DNA from: an uncultured Pelagibacteraceae bacterium
GTDB taxonomy: Bacteria; Pseudomonadota; Alphaproteobacteria; Pelagibacterales; Pelagibacteraceae
Assembly (NCBI GenBank): GCA_902524115.1
Contig: CABZCA010000006.1
Span: 1 to 64,000 of the forward strand
DNA length: 64,000 nucleotides
Direction of reading: 5' to 3'
This document shows, one piece after another, positions 1,625 to 18,526 of this stretch. The position numbers and the translations under genes were made by a program. How positions within the stretch are numbered: position 1 is the stretch's first letter; each line of letters starts with the position of its first letter. A model generated the notes under the pieces. It had not been told where the DNA came from. It searched no databases and worked only from the letters and a program-made list of their open reading frames with translations.

Positions 1625-2425
1625 ATGATATCATCTAATCCATTCTTAACATTAGCGGAGACAGTACCTCCATTTTTGATGCAATCTTTTGTTATATTAA
1701 TGGGCTTACTAATTCTAGTTGGAACAGTAATGGATATTATTCATAAAAAAAACGTGAAGTATTTCTTTAATAATGCAAAAAAAGCAAAATTATCAGCTAC
1801 GAAAACCTTATCAACAGGTGAGAGAATATCTGTAATTTCAAAAACTATAGCAAGCGATATTGCTACTACATCTGAACTTGGTGCAGGTAAAAGAAGAGTG
1901 GCGCATGTAATGGGAATGTACGGAACAATACTTTTTTGGGTAGGTTCAGTTGTCATGATATTCTTTTATACATCTCCAGGATCTACTACTCCAACTATAT
2001 GGCCAATGATATGGCACATTGGAGCAGCACTAACTGTATTAGGAGGATCTTGGTTTTGGTTCTTTCTAAGAGTTGATGTTTATTCTGAGGCACAACCTTG
2101 GTTTAGAATGATAAAAGCTGACTTATTTGTTTTAGCTTTAATATTATCATCCTTATTCGGTCTAATATGGTCTTACCTCCAATCACTAAATCTCGTTGGA
2201 AGATATGATGACATGGTTTTTTTAGCATTATTTATTGTTGCAAATCTAGTTTTATTTGGCGGAGTATATTGGTCAAAATTTGCTCATATGTTTTATAAAC
2301 CGGGAGCAGCAATACAAAAAAATTTAGCAGAAGCTGATGGTTCTAGAGATAATCTACCACCAGAAGCAGATGCACCTGAGCAATTTGGCTTAGGTATAAA
2401 AAGAGAAGAGCCAAAACACTATTAA
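1625..2425 (+). CDS. aprM: Adenylylsulfate reductase membrane anchor AprM
   Basis: A 266-residue integral membrane protein with about five hydrophobic segments, immediately before aprB and aprA. In the SAR11-type and some sulfur-oxidiser apr loci, AprM is thought to dock the AprBA complex on the membrane and pass electrons from sulfite oxidation to quinone. The open frame extends upstream to a TTG at 1571. The ATG at 1625 is preferred because a purine-rich AGCGGAAGGAA ribosome-binding stretch precedes it and the added N-terminal residues look non-coding. The name depends on context as well as topology. Confidence 0.8.
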   Translation: MISSNPFLTLAETVPPFLMQSFVILMGLLILVGTVMDIIHKKNVKYFFNNAKKAKLSATKTLSTGERISVISKTIASDIATTSELGAGKRRVAHVMGMYGTILFWVGSVVMIFFYTSPGSTTPTIWPMIWHIGAALTVLGGSWFWFFLRVDVYSEAQPWFRMIKADLFVLALILSSLFGLIWSYLQSLNLVGRYDDMVFLALFIVANLVLFGGVYWSKFAHMFYKPGAAIQKNLAEADGSRDNLPPEADAPEQFGLGIKREEPKHY

Positions 2426-2459
2426 TATGATAAAAATTAAAAAGGAGAAAAATTAAATT

Positions 2460-2930
2460 ATGTCAACTTTTGTATATATGACCCGTTGTGATGGTTGTGG
2501 TCACTGTGTAGATATTTGCCCTTCAGATATAATGCATATCGATGAAACAATAAGAAGAGCAAAGAATATTGAACCAAACTTTTGTTGGGAGTGTTATTCA
2601 TGCGTGAAAGCATGCCCTAATCATGCTATCGATGTAAGAGGTTATGCAGATTTTGCACCGATGGGACACAGCGTTAGAGTTAGACGTGAAGAGGAAAAAG
2701 GAACTATTTCATGGAAAATAAAATTTAGAAATGGAACTACAAAAGATTTTGTATCTCCAATCACAACTAAACCTTGGGGAAAGTTTATTCCAAAACTTGC
2801 TGAGGGAGATAAACCAAATCAAGGAGAGATAAATTCTCAAAGATTATATACTGAGCCAGAAGGTTTAAATATTGATGGAGAACTTCCATCAGTACCTAAA
2901 GAAACTTTCAAAAAGGGAGTTTATTATTAA
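2460..2930 (+). CDS. aprB: Adenylylsulfate reductase beta subunit (two 4Fe-4S clusters)
   Basis: A 156-residue ferredoxin-like protein with two cluster motifs near the N-terminus, CDGCGHCVDICP and CWECYSCVKACP, followed by the AprB tail. It carries electrons from the FAD site of AprA to the membrane. A good GGAG ribosome-binding site lies upstream. Its stop overlaps the aprA start as TAATG, which fits strict stoichiometric co-translation. Confidence 0.95.
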   Translation: MSTFVYMTRCDGCGHCVDICPSDIMHIDETIRRAKNIEPNFCWECYSCVKACPNHAIDVRGYADFAPMGHSVRVRREEEKGTISWKIKFRNGTTKDFVSPITTKPWGKFIPKLAEGDKPNQGEINSQRLYTEPEGLNIDGELPSVPKETFKKGVYY

Positions 2931-4792
2931 TGGCTAAACATAAAACACATTACGAAGATTGTGACGTTCTTGTAGTTGGTGGTGGAATGGCTGGAACAGG
3001 TGCTGCTTTTGAAGCAAGGCACTGGGGAAGAGATTTGAAAATTGTTTGTGTTGAAAAAGCAAATATAGATAGAAGTGGAGCTGTTGCCCAAGGATTGTAT
3101 GCAATTAATTGTTACATGGGTATGCAATGGGGTGAAAACCAGCCTGAAGATCATGTAAGATATGCACGTAATGATCTAATGGGAATGGTAAGAGAAGATT
3201 TAGGTTATGACATGGCACGTCACGTAGACTCAACTGTACATATGTTTGATGAGTGGGGCCTGCCAATGATGAAAAATGAAAAAACTGGTCGTTACTTAAG
3301 AGAGGGTAAATGGCAAATCATGATTCATGGTGAAAGTTACAAACCAATTGTAGCTGAAGCTGCTAAAAAATCAGCAGACAAAATTTATAATAGAATAATG
3401 GTCACTCATCTTTTAATGGATGAGGAAAAAGAAAACAGAGTAGGCGGTGCAGTAGGTTTCAATATGAGAACTGGAGACTTCCATGTTTTCAGAGCAAAAA
3501 CAGTTATTGTTGCAGCTGGTGGAGCCTCTCACATATTTAAACCAAGAGCTGTTGGAGAAGGTATGGGAAGAACTTGGTATGCTCCTTGGAGTAATGGTTC
3601 AGCATATGCACTTCCAATTGCAGCTGGTGCCAAAATGACTCAGATGGAGAATAGAATTGTTTTATGTAGATTTAAAGATGGATATGGTCCCGTTGGTGCA
3701 TATTTTCTTCATTTAAAAACTTACACTCAAAATGCTAATGGAGAAAACTATGAGAAGAAATGGTATGAACAAACAAAGGAATTAGTTGGCGAATATATCG
3801 ACCATCACCCAACACCAACATGTTTAAGAAATCACGCATTTATTCAAGAAACAATGGCAGGTGGAGGCCCAATTCACATGGTTACTACAGAAGCCTTCCA
3901 AGATCCACATTTAGAAACGGTTGGCTGGGAAAATTTCTTGGGAATGACCGTCGGTCAAGCAGTTGTTTGGGCGTCACAAAATATTGACCCTAAATATACA
4001 AATCCAGAACTTACTACATCTGAACCTTACGTTATGGGTTCACATGCTACATGTTCAGGTGCATGGGTCAGTGGACCTGAAGATCTATCACCGCCAGAAT
4101 ATTTCTGGGGTTACAATAGAATGTTAACAATTGAGGGACTTTTTGGAGCTGGAGATACTGTTGGAGGAAGTGCACATAAATTTTCTTCAGGCTCATTTAC
4201 AGAGGGTCGTTTAGCAGCAAAAGCTGCAGTAAAATATATTGAAGACCAAAAAGCTAACGATATTAAAGTTAGCGATAAACAATGTGAAGATTTTAAAACA
4301 GCTGTTTACAAACCACTTGAAAATTATACTGTTGGACGAAACGAAATCACAGGTGGAACTGTTTCACCTAGCTATATATCTCCAATTCAAGGACTTCAAA
4401 GACTACAGAGAATTATGGATGAATACGTTGGAGGAATTGCAACAAATTACATGACCAACGCAAATATGCTTAAAAAAGGTTTAGAATTACTTAAATGGCT
4501 TGAAGAGGATTTAGAAAATGTTGGAGCAGAGGATTATCATCAATTAATGAGAGCTTGGGAACTTAAGCATAGAGCTTTAACATCTCAGTGTGTAACAGAA
4601 CACACTATGTTTAGAGAAGAAACAAGATGGCCAGGCTACTATTACAGAGGTGACCATATGAAACTTGATGATGATAATTGGCACTGTCTGACAGTTTCTA
4701 GACGTGATCCTAAAACTGGTAAGTTTTCTTTGGAAAAGGTACCCGTTTACCATATCGTGGATGAGAACGAGAAGAAAAAAGAAGCTTCTTAA
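2930..4792 (+). CDS. aprA: Adenylylsulfate reductase alpha subunit (FAD)
   Basis: A 620-residue flavoprotein of the succinate dehydrogenase/fumarate reductase fold. It has the N-terminal dinucleotide motif VVGGGMAGTGAAF and the AprA-specific block GSHATCSGAWVSGPED. The enzyme interconverts sulfite plus AMP and adenylylsulfate. In SAR11 it is believed to run toward sulfite oxidation, because these cells lack assimilatory sulfate reduction. The neighbouring sulfonate lyases and sulfite exporter fit a sulfite-disposal role. No ATP sulfurylase gene is present in this window. Confidence 0.95.
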   Translation: MAKHKTHYEDCDVLVVGGGMAGTGAAFEARHWGRDLKIVCVEKANIDRSGAVAQGLYAINCYMGMQWGENQPEDHVRYARNDLMGMVREDLGYDMARHVDSTVHMFDEWGLPMMKNEKTGRYLREGKWQIMIHGESYKPIVAEAAKKSADKIYNRIMVTHLLMDEEKENRVGGAVGFNMRTGDFHVFRAKTVIVAAGGASHIFKPRAVGEGMGRTWYAPWSNGSAYALPIAAGAKMTQMENRIVLCRFKDGYGPVGAYFLHLKTYTQNANGENYEKKWYEQTKELVGEYIDHHPTPTCLRNHAFIQETMAGGGPIHMVTTEAFQDPHLETVGWENFLGMTVGQAVVWASQNIDPKYTNPELTTSEPYVMGSHATCSGAWVSGPEDLSPPEYFWGYNRMLTIEGLFGAGDTVGGSAHKFSSGSFTEGRLAAKAAVKYIEDQKANDIKVSDKQCEDFKTAVYKPLENYTVGRNEITGGTVSPSYISPIQGLQRLQRIMDEYVGGIATNYMTNANMLKKGLELLKWLEEDLENVGAEDYHQLMRAWELKHRALTSQCVTEHTMFREETRWPGYYYRGDHMKLDDDNWHCLTVSRRDPKTGKFSLEKVPVYHIVDENEKKKEAS

Positions 4793-4808
4793 TTGAAACA
4801 AATCAGAA

Positions 4809-5159
4809 ATGGCTTTTTTAGATAAATCCGACGAGGAAATTATTAAAATTGCAGATCCTATGTGGGCTAATTTGGTCAAGTCCTCAAACATCAAAGATTA
4901 TGGTGGCTTTACTCGAGATTTGTCTTCTCAAATGATGTATGGAGCTAATGAAGTCGAACTTGGAAAGCAATGGGCAAACAACGAGTTGATTTCAAGTCTA
5001 GCTGAAGGATGTAAAGCTATTGGCTGTCTTAGAAGAGGTCTATACATAACTGTCTTGTATAAACAGACTAGCACAAAGATCCCTGGAGATTTTTTGGGAA
5101 GACTAGTTCTTGGGGAAGAGGGAGATGAAGTTAAAGTCTTCGGTGCAACAATATTCTAA
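4809..5159 (+). CDS. Conserved protein of unknown function linked to aprMBA
   Basis: A 116-residue soluble protein starting 16 nt after aprA, so probably the last gene of the apr operon. I recognise no named domain. It has two cysteines (CKAIGC, near residues 68-73), no signal peptide and no membrane segment. Its position suggests a part in AprBA assembly or sulfite handling, but that is inference only. Confidence 0.7.
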   Translation: MAFLDKSDEEIIKIADPMWANLVKSSNIKDYGGFTRDLSSQMMYGANEVELGKQWANNELISSLAEGCKAIGCLRRGLYITVLYKQTSTKIPGDFLGRLVLGEEGDEVKVFGATIF

Positions 5160-15230: not shown

Positions 15231-15689
15231 ATGATTTATAAATTATCAAAAAGCCTTTTTGTGCTTTTTTTCCTGATTTTATTTTCAAATTATTCTTACA
15301 GCGAGACTAAAATAGACGAAGCTGTTGACAAAACTACAGATTTTTTAAAGTCTGTTTCAAAAAGAGGACTAAACAAAAATCAAACAGCTGAATTTTTAAA
15401 TAATTATGCAATTACTTTAAAAGATGAGAGAACAGATGGAGAAATTACCTATATTTTTGATAGTGAAAATTACAAGAGATATAAAGATGGGAAAGTCATA
15501 TCCAAAGATGGCTGGAGATTTTCAAAATTAGGAGCCTTAAGATTATTTAACGGTGATGTAAAACTGACTTGGAAAATAAAAATCGGCAAAGAGAATTTAA
15601 TGGTTATTAAAACAAAATTTCAACCAATTGGAAAAGAATATCCTTTTACATACAAACAAAAAAAACTATTTTTTGATGAAATCCAATGA
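15231..15689 (+). CDS. Secreted hypothetical protein
   Basis: A 152-residue protein with a clear signal peptide (lysine followed by LFVLFFLILFSNYSYS). The mature part is charged, without cysteines or a motif I can name. Its last codons overlap the start of the next small membrane protein by 4 nt, so the two are probably co-translated. Confidence 0.65.
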   Translation: MIYKLSKSLFVLFFLILFSNYSYSETKIDEAVDKTTDFLKSVSKRGLNKNQTAEFLNNYAITLKDERTDGEITYIFDSENYKRYKDGKVISKDGWRFSKLGALRLFNGDVKLTWKIKIGKENLMVIKTKFQPIGKEYPFTYKQKKLFFDEIQ

Positions 15690-15868
15690 ACCCAACTGAT
15701 ATTCTACTAAGTATTGCAATCGTTGGAATATACACAATTATTTATGTTTATTTGAAATCTAAATATGATGATAATAAAACAATCATAAAATTATTCGTGA
15801 TTGGCTTCATTTACTCAACAATAATTACTGGTATTCTTTATTATTTAATAAAATTTATAGCTTCTTAA
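15686..15868 (+). CDS. Small two-span membrane protein
   Basis: A 60-residue protein with two hydrophobic segments separated by a short charged loop (KSKYDDNKT). It starts within the end of the preceding secreted-protein gene (ATGA-type overlap), which supports translation. No family recognised. Confidence 0.55.
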   Translation: MNPTDILLSIAIVGIYTIIYVYLKSKYDDNKTIIKLFVIGFIYSTIITGILYYLIKFIAS

Positions 15869-15877
15869 AAAGTTTAT

Positions 15878-16564
15878 ATGAGACATAAATTGAAATTAAT
15901 TTATTTCAAAATGAGAGCACTAGCAGAAGCTCCTCGCTTATTATTTCATTACACAAATATTGAATATGAAGATCTTATGTCATGGGATTATTATGATAAG
16001 GAATGGTCAGAGGTAAAACCTAATATCCCATTTAAACAATTACCCATGTTAGTTATAGATAAGAAGCATGAGATTTGTCAAAGCTTGGCAATTATGACAT
16101 TTGTTGAAAATTTAGCAGGCATTAATATTACTGATCCAATATTAAATGCTAAAGCAAATGCTATCATGCAGAGTGCACAGGAACTTTTTATGCCTCTTAA
16201 CCCAACAGTAAATTTTGCAATAGGTGAGAAATTTATAAAGAAAAAAGATGACATGATGCCATTTTTATTGTCAAGATTTGAAGATCTTGAAAAAGCCATG
16301 AAGAATAATGATAAAAAATTTTTTATCTATGATGAGCCTAGAGCATGTGATTTTGTTGCGTTTCATCATTTAGATTTATCTAAAATGCTTGATCCCTCAA
16401 TAATAAAAAAATTTCCTAGGTTAGAAAAATTTCTGGAGGACATAATGTCTATCGAAAGTATTAAATCTTATTTGGATAAACGTCCTGAATTGATTGATGT
16501 AAGTGTTGAACCAAAATTAGTTATTGATGGGGTTCCACACTCAACAGGAGTTAAAAAAACCTAA
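15878..16564 (+). CDS. Glutathione S-transferase family protein
   Basis: A 228-residue protein with a thioredoxin-fold N-terminal domain. It shows the sigma-class-like pattern KLIYFKMRALAEAPRLL followed by PFKQLPMLVID, whose cis-Pro binds glutathione, then ICQSLAIMTF. A helical C-terminal domain follows. It probably conjugates glutathione to electrophiles or acts as a glutathione-dependent isomerase. A Tyr (YF near residue 10) sits where the catalytic hydroxyl is expected. Confidence 0.82.
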   Translation: MRHKLKLIYFKMRALAEAPRLLFHYTNIEYEDLMSWDYYDKEWSEVKPNIPFKQLPMLVIDKKHEICQSLAIMTFVENLAGINITDPILNAKANAIMQSAQELFMPLNPTVNFAIGEKFIKKKDDMMPFLLSRFEDLEKAMKNNDKKFFIYDEPRACDFVAFHHLDLSKMLDPSIIKKFPRLEKFLEDIMSIESIKSYLDKRPELIDVSVEPKLVIDGVPHSTGVKKT

Positions 16565-16578
16565 TTATTAATAGTTGA

Positions 16579-16606
16579 TTGCGTTATAGAAAATTTCTAT
16601 TATAAC
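16579..16606 (+). promoter_or_regulatory. Promoter upstream of the truncated tRNA-Met copy
   Basis: TTGCGT (16579-16584), a 16-nt spacer and TATAAC (16601-16606) lie 15 nt before the tRNA 5' end, the expected geometry for a tRNA promoter. Because the tRNA copy behind it has lost its 3' part, this promoter now points into the three genes at 16754-17765. Confidence 0.55.
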
Positions 16607-16620
16607 TTTCAGGAATTTAT

Positions 16621-16682
16621 GGCGGGGTAGCTCAGTTGGTTAGAGCGCGGGACTCATAAGCCCGAGGTCAGTGGTTCGATCC
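16621..16682 (+). pseudogene. 3'-truncated tRNA-Met copy (left direct repeat)
   Basis: These 62 nt are identical to nucleotides 1-62 of the intact tRNA-Met at 17920, from the mature 5' end through the T-loop, including the CAT anticodon. After 16682 the sequence diverges to TCTAGATTTCC. The T-stem 3' strand and the acceptor 3' strand are therefore lost and no CCA end can form. The perfect identity of the rest implies a recent event or continuing exchange with the intact copy. Confidence 0.9.
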
Positions 16683-16720
16683 TCTAGATTTCCTAATTAA
16701 TTTAAGCAAACATAAATATT

Positions 16721-16737
16721 GGTCCAGTGGTGGTCCA
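16721..16737 (+). repeat. GGTCCA repeat cluster inside the left end
   Basis: Two GGTCCA hexamers start at 16721 and 16732, spaced exactly 11 bp (about one helical turn). The same motif and spacing recur near the right end. The pattern resembles arm-type binding sites of tyrosine recombinases; this function is inferred. Confidence 0.5.
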
Positions 16738-16753
16738 TTGATATGATAGTTTT

Positions 16754-17092
16754 ATGAGAAAAATTTTAGGAATTATAGTTCTGAGTTTCTTATGTAATGT
16801 GAATACAAACGCAGAAATAATAAAATTGATTTGTATTGATCCAAAAGAAAGAGACTTTATAGTTCAAATTCCAAATGAGGGTATCATCGCACAAATACAA
16901 GGTCAGATAGTCGGATTACAAAGAACCGAGGACCATTATTTCCTAGAACACTATGAAAAAAAAGGTGTAAAAAATGATATTTTTTTTTCAATTAATAGAT
17001 CAACAGGAAAATTTGAAGGACTTTGGCAAATTGGATCTATTAAAGGTTTTTATTCTGGATACTGCAAATTAAAACCAAAAAATAAATTTTAA
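16754..17092 (+). CDS. Secreted orphan protein, first cargo gene of the tRNA-Met element
   Basis: A 112-residue protein with a signal peptide ending near ...NTNA, and a small mature domain containing two cysteines (one near the start, ICID, and one near the end, GYCKLK), which could form a disulfide. No family recognised. It is the first gene behind the old tRNA promoter and is followed 7 nt later by the next cargo gene. Confidence 0.6.
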   Translation: MRKILGIIVLSFLCNVNTNAEIIKLICIDPKERDFIVQIPNEGIIAQIQGQIVGLQRTEDHYFLEHYEKKGVKNDIFFSINRSTGKFEGLWQIGSIKGFYSGYCKLKPKNKF

Positions 17093-17099
17093 TAATTTT

Positions 17100-17288
17100 A
17101 TGAAAAAAGACTGGAATGATGAAGATGATAAGCAACTAGCAAGAGTTAGAGCTAAAATTAATAATCCTCAAGATTTTAAAGATCCTGAAAAAAGAAATAT
17201 TTTCGAGAAATTCGGACATTATTTGCTTGATAACTCAAAAGTAACATTGATTGTTATAGGGATAATTATTTTATTGATGATAATTTAA
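17100..17288 (+). CDS. Small tail-anchored membrane protein, second cargo gene
   Basis: A 62-residue protein with a charged soluble part (KKDWNDEDDKQLARVRAK) and a C-terminal hydrophobic segment (VTLIVIGIIILLMII) reaching the last residue, the layout of a tail anchor. Closely spaced with its neighbours on both sides. No family recognised. Confidence 0.6.
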   Translation: MKKDWNDEDDKQLARVRAKINNPQDFKDPEKRNIFEKFGHYLLDNSKVTLIVIGIIILLMII

Positions 17289-17297
17289 CATCACATT

Positions 17298-17765
17298 ATG
17301 AGAAAATTTTTGACAATAATTTTCATCTTAATTTTTTATAGTTCAGCAAATGCTGGTTCAGATTTTCAAAATTCTTTGGAAAATTTATATAATAAGTATG
17401 ACTCTATAAACGCATATGATTATGCTTTTTATTTATCTGAAGTAGGGGAATTAGCGAAAAAGAAAAAAGATAACGCTATAAAATGTTATAGAAAACTTTT
17501 GAAAGAAAAAAAAAGATCTATTTATGATAATGATAAAAATTGTGTTAAATTTAAAGTTTCTTTCGGTTCACAATCTGATGTATGGAGATTAAATTTTATA
17601 AAATTTTCTACAATTTTAATTGATGCAATCCAAAAAAATGAAAATGGATATTTTAAAGTTCTACCAGATGGAAAGAAAAAAATAGTAGAAGATAATATAT
17701 TGATACTCGCAGATTTTAACGAATTGATTGTTATCCTTTTCAAATTAGCAAAAGATTCAAATTGA
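17298..17765 (+). CDS. Secreted orphan protein, third cargo gene
   Basis: A 155-residue protein with a signal peptide (FLTIIFILIFYSSANA). The helical, lysine-rich mature domain contains two cysteines (KCYRK and NCVKF). No family recognised. Three adjacent genes all directed to membrane or periplasm suggest an envelope-acting cargo. Confidence 0.6.
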   Translation: MRKFLTIIFILIFYSSANAGSDFQNSLENLYNKYDSINAYDYAFYLSEVGELAKKKKDNAIKCYRKLLKEKKRSIYDNDKNCVKFKVSFGSQSDVWRLNFIKFSTILIDAIQKNENGYFKVLPDGKKKIVEDNILILADFNELIVILFKLAKDSN

Positions 17766-17794
17766 TAAAACAAATCACGCACAGGTCTCCACGT

Positions 17795-17835
17795 GACCAG
17801 AAATCCTGGTCCAAATTTGATCCACTCATGGTCCA
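17795..17835 (+). repeat. GGTCCA repeat cluster and inverted repeat inside the right end
   Basis: GGTCCA (17808), GATCCA (17819) and GGTCCA (17830) are spaced exactly 11 bp. GACCAG (17795-17800) and CTGGTC (17806-17811) form an inverted repeat around AAATC. The motif and phasing match the left-end cluster, supporting a common binding protein for both ends. Confidence 0.5.
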
Positions 17836-17875
17836 CGGGGAAACCCTTATTAAACACAATTTCTTAATTTCTTGT

Positions 17876-17903
17876 TTGAAAGAAAAAAAATAAGTAGTAT
17901 AAA
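17876..17903 (+). promoter_or_regulatory. Promoter of the intact tRNA-Met, carried by the element
   Basis: TTGAAA (17876-17881), a 16-nt spacer and TATAAA (17898-17903), 16 nt before the tRNA 5' end. The geometry equals that of the promoter before the truncated copy, but the sequence is different. Confidence 0.55.
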
Positions 17904-17919
17904 CCAACAATTATTTTAA

Positions 17920-17996
17920 GGCGGGGTAGCTCAGTTGGTTAGAGCGCGGGACTCATAAGCCCGAGGTCAGTGGTTCGATCCCACTTCCCGCTACCA
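17920..17996 (+). tRNA. tRNA-Met (CAT), elongator type
   Basis: The 77-nt cloverleaf has acceptor GGCGGGG/TCCCGCT with G1-U72 and G7-U66 wobbles, D-stem GCTC/GAGC, anticodon loop CTCATAA, T-stem AGTGG/CCACT and an encoded CCA. The anticodon stem has an A-G mismatch next to the loop. It lacks three consecutive G-C pairs at the loop end of the anticodon stem, which favours elongator over initiator. It ends 2 nt before the convergent apt stop codon. Confidence 0.93.
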
Positions 17997-17998
17997 AA

Positions 17999-18526
17999 TT
18001 AATGGCCAGGAAAATCCATCAAATTTTCAACTTTGTAACCTTTTTTTAGAAGATTATCACAGCCACCTAAATCAAAAAGATTTATGACAAATATAAAGGC
18101 TGCAATATTTCCTTTAGAAATCTCTACGAGTTTTGCTGCAGCTTCTGCAGTTCCTCCTGTCGCTATCAAATCATCTATTATAAGAACAGAATCATTTTCT
18201 GAAATTGAGTCTTTATGAACTTCTATTGATGCTGTTCCATATTCAAGCTCAAAATCAACTGAATGCACATCAGCAGGTAGTTTATTTTTTTTTCTTAACA
18301 TTATGAATGGTTTTTTTAAAATGTAAGAAACAGCAGATGCAAACACAAAACCACGTGATTCAATTGCAGCAATTTTATCTATTTTAAATTTTTTGGATCT
18401 CTCAACAATTTGATTTATTGACTCCTCAAAAGCAGTCTCATTCTTTATTAATGTGGTTATATCTCTAAATAAAATACCTTTTTTAGGATAATCTTTAATT
18501 GAGCGAATATAATCTTTTAAATCCAT
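17999..18526 (-). CDS. apt: Adenine phosphoribosyltransferase
   Basis: A 175-residue protein with the PRPP-binding motif VLIIDDLIATGGTAEAA and the upstream AIESRGFVFASAV block typical of Apt. It converts adenine and PRPP to AMP. It is divergent from mtnP, which releases adenine from methylthioadenosine, so the two genes form a salvage pair. Its 3' end runs against the tRNA-Met gene with a 2-nt gap. Confidence 0.93.
   Translation of the reverse strand: MDLKDYIRSIKDYPKKGILFRDITTLIKNETAFEESINQIVERSKKFKIDKIAAIESRGFVFASAVSYILKKPFIMLRKKNKLPADVHSVDFELEYGTASIEVHKDSISENDSVLIIDDLIATGGTAEAAAKLVEISKGNIAAFIFVINLFDLGGCDNLLKKGYKVENLMDFPGH

Follow-up and report, generated by a model that had tools for sequence, protein, structure and literature searches.

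Why does the gene for tRNA-Met(CAU) begin twice on this contig, and what drives the genes that lie between the two beginnings? The window, which is the whole 64,000-nt stretch analysed here, comes from the 1.1-Mb genome (about 80% complete) of an uncultured member of the Pelagibacteraceae. ARAGORN finds a single intact tRNA-Met(CAU) in it, at 17920-17996 on the plus strand, and a truncated copy begins 1,299 bp upstream in the same orientation (16621-16682) and reproduces the opening 62 nt of the intact gene without a mismatch. Together with an Rfam match to this copy that covers only model positions 8-63 of 71 (36.4 bits), this identity confirms the observation of the first-pass annotation that the tRNA behind the upstream promoter is truncated. 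Three relatives (G031, locus L049; G047, L043; G004, L064) carry the locus uninterrupted, as a glutathione S-transferase (GST) gene, 56 nt, tRNA-Met, 2 nt and an adenine phosphoribosyltransferase-type (APT) gene; they are three of the 47 tRNA loci compared, the others being cut short, occupied or provided with other neighbours. The same GST gene (15878-16564, plus strand; Pfam GST_N/GST_C) is the left neighbour in the window, and the APT gene (17999-18526, minus strand; Pfam Pribosyltran) is the right one, with identical spacing of 2 nt to the tRNA. When aligned with these loci, the empty-site spacings match both sides of the insert, the promoter side preceding the truncated copy and the 3' side following the intact one. 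Since relatives thus have an uninterrupted tRNA locus, the comparison identifies the 1,299 bp from 16621 to 17919 as a site-specific insertion within the tRNA-Met(CAU) gene. An insert flanked by an intact tRNA and a displaced fragment in the same orientation, with an empty site in relatives, is the hallmark of a tRNA island, and all of this is found here. A 60-aa membrane-type ORF precedes the GST gene (15686-15868), and a look-alike adjoins the element of G037 (L057) on its left.

The alignment also indicates what was exchanged. The host retained the 3' part of the tRNA, while the element brought the 5' part of the now intact gene along with a new promoter, leaving the old promoter before most of a tRNA. 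The plus-strand block at 16575-16606 (TTGATTGCGT...TATAAC) is assigned as this orphaned host promoter because it is kept, with few differences, before the same tRNA in all three empty-site relatives. A promoter scan matches TTGATT-17-TATTAT within it, and TTGCGT-16-TATAAC is the alternative if the promoter is placed at 16579-16606, as the first-pass annotation had done; its view that this is the old tRNA promoter, now aimed at the cargo, is borne out by the three relatives. Promoter capture is thus real as a matter of position, and its function in cargo expression is putative. On the right, the intact tRNA would now be served by an element-borne promoter, TTGAAA-16-TATAAA (17876-17903, plus strand), recognised in an alignment of the right ends of 11 elements; the empty sites differ from it in sequence. 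Over these 11 elements, the 60 nt before the intact tRNA have a mean pairwise identity of 0.89. The gene so treated is probably single-copy, because a 77-nt match at 100% identity occurs in 34 of 101 genomes, once in each, the single-contig genome G012 included.

The arrangement is no product of chance, since it recurs: a pattern for 5'-truncated tRNA copies, which misses copies with an A at position 64, finds the same split tRNA-Met in nine of 399 genus genomes, the window's included. In each of the nine carriers both ends of the element are conserved, and an intact tRNA follows 1.0-3.8 kb downstream. A search with the left-end box described below returns 13 contigs, every one from uncultured Pelagibacteraceae, which points to a SAR11-type host, and 12 of them with the box behind a truncated tRNA copy; six are additional to the nine carriers, which makes 15 elements in all. 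Insert size ranges from 998 to 3,795 bp in the ten elements that have both tRNA copies. Some bases near the 5' end of the displaced tRNA piece in AG-447-L03 (L099) are altered, which is what a copy without function would be expected to show.

Both ends of the element carry GGTCCA repeats 11 bp apart. On the left, where the truncated copy forms an attL-like junction, a conserved spacer (16683-16718, plus strand; recognisable in 14 of the 15 elements, different in AG-917-B07) is followed by a box at 16719-16742, plus strand, with two direct GGTCCA repeats at 16721 and 16732; on the right, GGTCCA, GATCCA and GGTCCA follow each other with an 11-bp period at 17808, 17819 and 17830 (17808-17835, plus strand). 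Behind the box, TTGGTCCA[CG]TGGTGGTCCA[CT]TGAT, positions +1 and +5 are A and T in all 15 elements (13 of 13 distinct strings), whereas +2 to +4 vary; the search pattern included TGAT, and the first T of TANNNT is present by construction, leaving only +1 and +5 as free evidence. These two bases complete TGATANNNT, an extended -10 motif 17 nt behind TTGGTC, and the first start codon (11 ATG, 4 GTG) lies 6-8 nt past TANNNT in all 15. In the window, the predicted cargo promoter thus reads TTGGTC (16719-16724), 17 nt and TATGAT (16742-16747) with an extended TGA (16719-16747, plus strand), 6 nt ahead of the first start codon, with a predicted start at about 16754. TTGGTC matches TTGACA at three of six positions only. 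The 15 elements share ancestry, so the conservation of the box does not amount to independent trials. The first genes themselves are mostly unrelated, with only three related pairs among the 15 first proteins in blastp at 1e-3, and control ORFs seldom show such a layout: among the 59 ORFs of at least 150 aa in the window, TANNNT occurs at that distance in 8, with TGn as well in 1, and with TTG 17 nt upstream in addition in none.

Elements of a second type, again at this tRNA, have a comparable layout. In G052 (L060), G249 (L161) and G287 (L159), three of the 399 genomes, GCTCCA repeats replace GGTCCA. Their left-hand tRNA is complete and, judged by position, has kept its earlier promoter, and a 3' tRNA fragment lies downstream in G052 and G249, none being found within the short G287 locus. 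All three nonetheless present TTGCTC-17-TAAAGT-6-ATG, in a search that required TANNNT and with a first frame of only 13 codons in G249. Given the conserved spacing of box, -10 motif and start codon, the mostly unrelated first genes, the control ORFs and these type-B elements, we think that the cargo is read from a promoter of its own and that its transcripts begin at or beside the start codon. Strictly leaderless translation is doubtful for the four first ORFs that start with GTG, because all 171 leaderless starts listed for the alphaproteobacterium Sinorhizobium are AUG, partly by definition (PMC3616915).

The first-pass annotation proposed instead that the cargo is expressed chiefly from the old tRNA promoter, by way of a chimeric leader of half a tRNA joined to mRNA. 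The conserved old promoter does lie directly upstream, a sequence scan finds no terminator-like site on the plus strand between it and the cargo, and the orientation of the genes agrees with such a model: the three cargo ORFs of the window all follow the tRNA, as was noted at the outset, and of the 36 ORFs with 50 aa or more in the 11 elements with both ends, 35 do so and one is opposed (AG-899-N16, AG-912-F23, AG-892-J03 and AG-447-L03 were left out of this count, their right ends lying outside the locus). However, every one of the 15 elements has a conserved promoter-like module 6-8 nt ahead of its first ORF, among them AG-917-B07, which has kept box and first gene although no tRNA copy remains upstream; the type-B elements, with an intact tRNA on the left, have such a module as well. 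The 14 left flanks, which hold the old promoters, share a mean identity of only 0.67, near-random when compared with shuffles (0.64, sd 0.04). It is thus very unlikely that the old promoter is the principal one. Nor is the leader likely to be processed as had been supposed. RNase P recognises the helix formed by acceptor and T stems, and a tRNA lacking the 3' acceptor strand is a poor substrate; since this strand is gone from the truncated copy and the folding of the chimeric leader does not surpass that of shuffled sequences (z +0.47), cutting at 16621 is unlikely. The same folding result led us to drop a structured leader RNA.

Read-through from the old promoter into the cargo is possible, since no terminator-like site intervenes, and need not be invoked to explain expression. 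The first-pass annotation had named a separate start between 16690 and 16754, with no read-through from upstream, as the observation that would speak against it. Such a start is predicted, at about 16754; as for the read-through, the old and new promoters both lie upstream in the same direction, and sequence cannot apportion expression between them. Perhaps both serve and integration swaps promoters, the cargo being read from its own promoter and, in addition, through from the tRNA promoter that happens to precede it, that of the element in a circular form and that of the host once integrated. In a circle, the geometry would place the right-end promoter ahead of the left end, just where the old promoter lies now; tRNA promoters of both origins face the cargo. 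However, the circular form and its transcript are hypothetical here, and we hold this relay to be possible but on the doubtful side.

The left flanks bear on yet another scenario, in which the element is the remnant of a larger island or prophage that decayed, lost its integrase and is now fixed. Its small size, the want of a recognised integrase and the changed half-tRNA bases in AG-447-L03 would fit such a history. However, the ends are conserved around different cargo in 15 elements, and several left flanks resemble a right end: G164 (0.87), G293 (0.83), AG-912-F23 (0.82), AG-892-J03 (0.80) and G037 (0.75), each value being the highest in 11 comparisons, whereas 200 shuffles, compared once each, reach 0.73 at most. 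This suggests that these five tRNAs had already been given an element's promoter earlier and then received another element in a serial insertion, the case of G037 being weak. With the four clearer flanks, the small form itself would be what moves, and we consider a fixed relic highly improbable.

What could mobilise such a small element? Pfam recognises no integrase in the 26 ORFs scanned out of the 36 in the 11 elements; of the remainder, eight belong to a 55-aa family (represented in the scan by a typed near-consensus), another shares 97.5% identity with a scanned ORF, and the last, of 57 aa, lay outside the scan. Pfam likewise finds no integrase in the three ORFs of the window, and PF00589 has no match in its approximately 80% complete genome. 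Since no integrase is recognised on board and the search for a helper found none, we infer mobilisation in trans. In viral contigs, neither the left-end box, nor a 35-nt tRNA core, nor the paired repeat gives any match. As a helper marker, the 55-aa ORF yields 11 pattern matches, none of them confirmed. The triple TGGTCCA repeat, present among the 101 relatives in G008 and G017 only, occurs at 21 viral loci, which were set aside: their GC content, 0.38-0.67, exceeds that of the window (0.31), and in every case the anticodon-loop string is missing from the surrounding 400 nt. Three viral contigs with, by eye, an apparent full tRNA-Met were rejected as helpers because their repeats differ. In two of these loci (L103 and L105) the apparent tRNA-Met(CAU) adjoins a 424-aa ORF that looks integrase-like by eye, in a locus with ACGTACC-type repeats, possibly a phage that uses the same tRNA; L104 shares the tRNA context and ends before this ORF. 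Phage_integrase matches per genus genome number one in 24 of 37 genomes, none in 10 and two in 3, and in a sister family two in 18 of 24. The recombinase found once in those 24 genomes (L106, 4644-5600; L107, 4740-5711) was discarded as well, as it sits in a glycan region in both loci viewed and no link to the element was found.

From their position and from what is known of bivalent integrases, we take the GGTCCA repeats to be candidate arm sites, with which the predicted -35/-10 module overlaps in all 15 elements. A tyrosine integrase provided in trans by a helper would then act on the tRNA core and on these repeats; the element would insert in tRNA-Met(CAU), displacing the host promoter and the 5' part of the tRNA leftward, and would supply on its right a replacement 5' part with a tRNA promoter of its own. 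Transcription of the cargo would proceed mainly from TTGGTC-17-TATGAT, starting at or next to the first start codon, and integrase binding at the overlapping repeats would shut it off; the old tRNA promoter may contribute read-through without being required. A precedent exists in KplE1: the intS promoter overlaps the attL arm sites, and the integrase represses it (PMC2951348). In that system the first gene encodes the integrase itself and the overlap was tested, whereas here the first gene is cargo, and the overlap, at the left end of 15 of 15 elements, is a prediction from sequence for a putative promoter and candidate sites.

That the element was inserted site-specifically and belongs to a recurrent, apparently non-autonomous family that targets a tRNA is well supported, and the promoter model is a prediction. 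As a whole, the account that joins the insertion, the family, an integrase in trans and a cargo expressed mainly from the left-end promoter strikes us as likely. It is tempting to go further and to imagine a class of cassettes of 1-4 kb in SAR11-type bacteria that carry no integrase and live by promoter exchange, an arm-site cargo promoter being switched off as a helper mobilises the cassette, but this generalisation is rather unlikely to hold as stated. If it did, insertion would take over the promoter and the 5' half of an apparently single-copy tRNA, so that loss would have to be precise, and would leave the old tRNA promoter aimed at a cargo whose own promoter is near-leaderless. In any case, a tRNA gene that is apparently single-copy can have its promoter replaced by such elements, and they offer an example of possible gene movement among abundant ocean bacteria without an on-board integrase, as minimal cassettes at one tRNA gene, their ends fixed and their cargo, in part nuclease- or defence-like, open to exchange.

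How does this family relate to known systems? Islands of the Islander class are marked at their ends by a displaced tRNA fragment and a regenerated, similarly oriented intact tRNA; only 5' fragments that lie downstream and 3' fragments that lie upstream are rejected, which admits a 5' fragment upstream (PMC4383910). The element here is flanked in the same way. However, it measures 1.3 kb and replaces the 5' part and promoter of the tRNA instead of its 3' end, and whereas an on-board integrase is usual for the islands described there (PMC4383910), none is recognised here. Tycheposons of Prochlorococcus, also proposed in Methylophilaceae, are described as cargo-bearing elements of 4-200 kb with a tyrosine recombinase and a tRNA border (PMC10872708). 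The present family resembles them in its streamlined, marine or pelagic host, its tRNA-Met border and its cargo, but differs in size (1-3.8 kb, 1.3 kb in the window) and in that no recombinase was found. It is a tRNA-targeting integrative element distinguished by its very small size, by having no recognised integrase and by replacing the 5' part and promoter of its tRNA. Among the best-ranked papers, a set mostly outside subscription journals, we found no description of this kind of element, and we do not claim that none is in print. Further variants occur. In G011 (L061), an element at 2235-3766 has TTGATCACACATAGATCACAGTGATAGAGT with an ATG 9 nt later, and GATCAC repeats; the tRNA pieces on its two sides are both incomplete, and ARAGORN detects no intact tRNA over the 8-kb locus. 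In G020 (L059), an element at 3156-4900 behind the same tRNA-Met has GACACA-type repeats and two larger ORFs in the opposite direction.

The cargo itself gives few functional cues. On the plus strand of the window, ORF 1 (16754-17092; 112 aa) starts like a signal peptide by eye and has no family match, ORF 2 (17100-17288; 62 aa) has a C-terminus hydrophobic by eye and a hit to the DnaB N-terminal domain below the cut-off (E 0.021), and ORF 3 (17298-17765; 155 aa), again with a signal-peptide-like start by eye, reaches only a PHROG of unknown function (E 0.075), so that none of the three has a family above threshold in Pfam, PADLOC or PHROG. A search for DNA relatives was set aside: 40 of 101 genomes pass E 0.001, but those besides the window's hold only short, chance-like pieces. 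Across the family, 19 of 26 scanned cargo ORFs have no Pfam family above the cut-off. Relatives carry an HNH nuclease (G008), an Mrr-type restriction domain and TerB (AG-914-I15), a ResIII/DEAD helicase resembling restriction enzymes (G338), a T5orf172 protein (G196) and a protein with a CapR homology domain (G403; L087, 10163-11500, minus strand). These nuclease, restriction and CapR domains suggest anti-phage or satellite functions for some. CapR, known from phage satellites, is a repressor of a helper capsid gene (PMC10111431). Small size, mostly one-directional genes and, in relatives, nuclease- or defence-like cargo, with one CapR homology domain, recall the PICMI and PICI satellites. However, int, alpA and primase, the marks of those satellites, have no match in the three ORFs of the window's insert. 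An ORF of 55 aa is common to eight of the 11 two-ended elements, the window's not among them; a structure prediction of this shared protein (pLDDT 60.5, pTM 0.38) was set aside. In 13 of 101 genomes there are relatives of it, and some of these lie elsewhere, for instance at the tmRNA gene. Two such members (L128, 5269-5567; L129, 5317-5615) lie beside the tmRNA gene, near genes that by eye resemble restriction enzymes or methyltransferases, and in both loci a recurrent 110-aa ORF on the other strand accompanies the 55-aa ORF.
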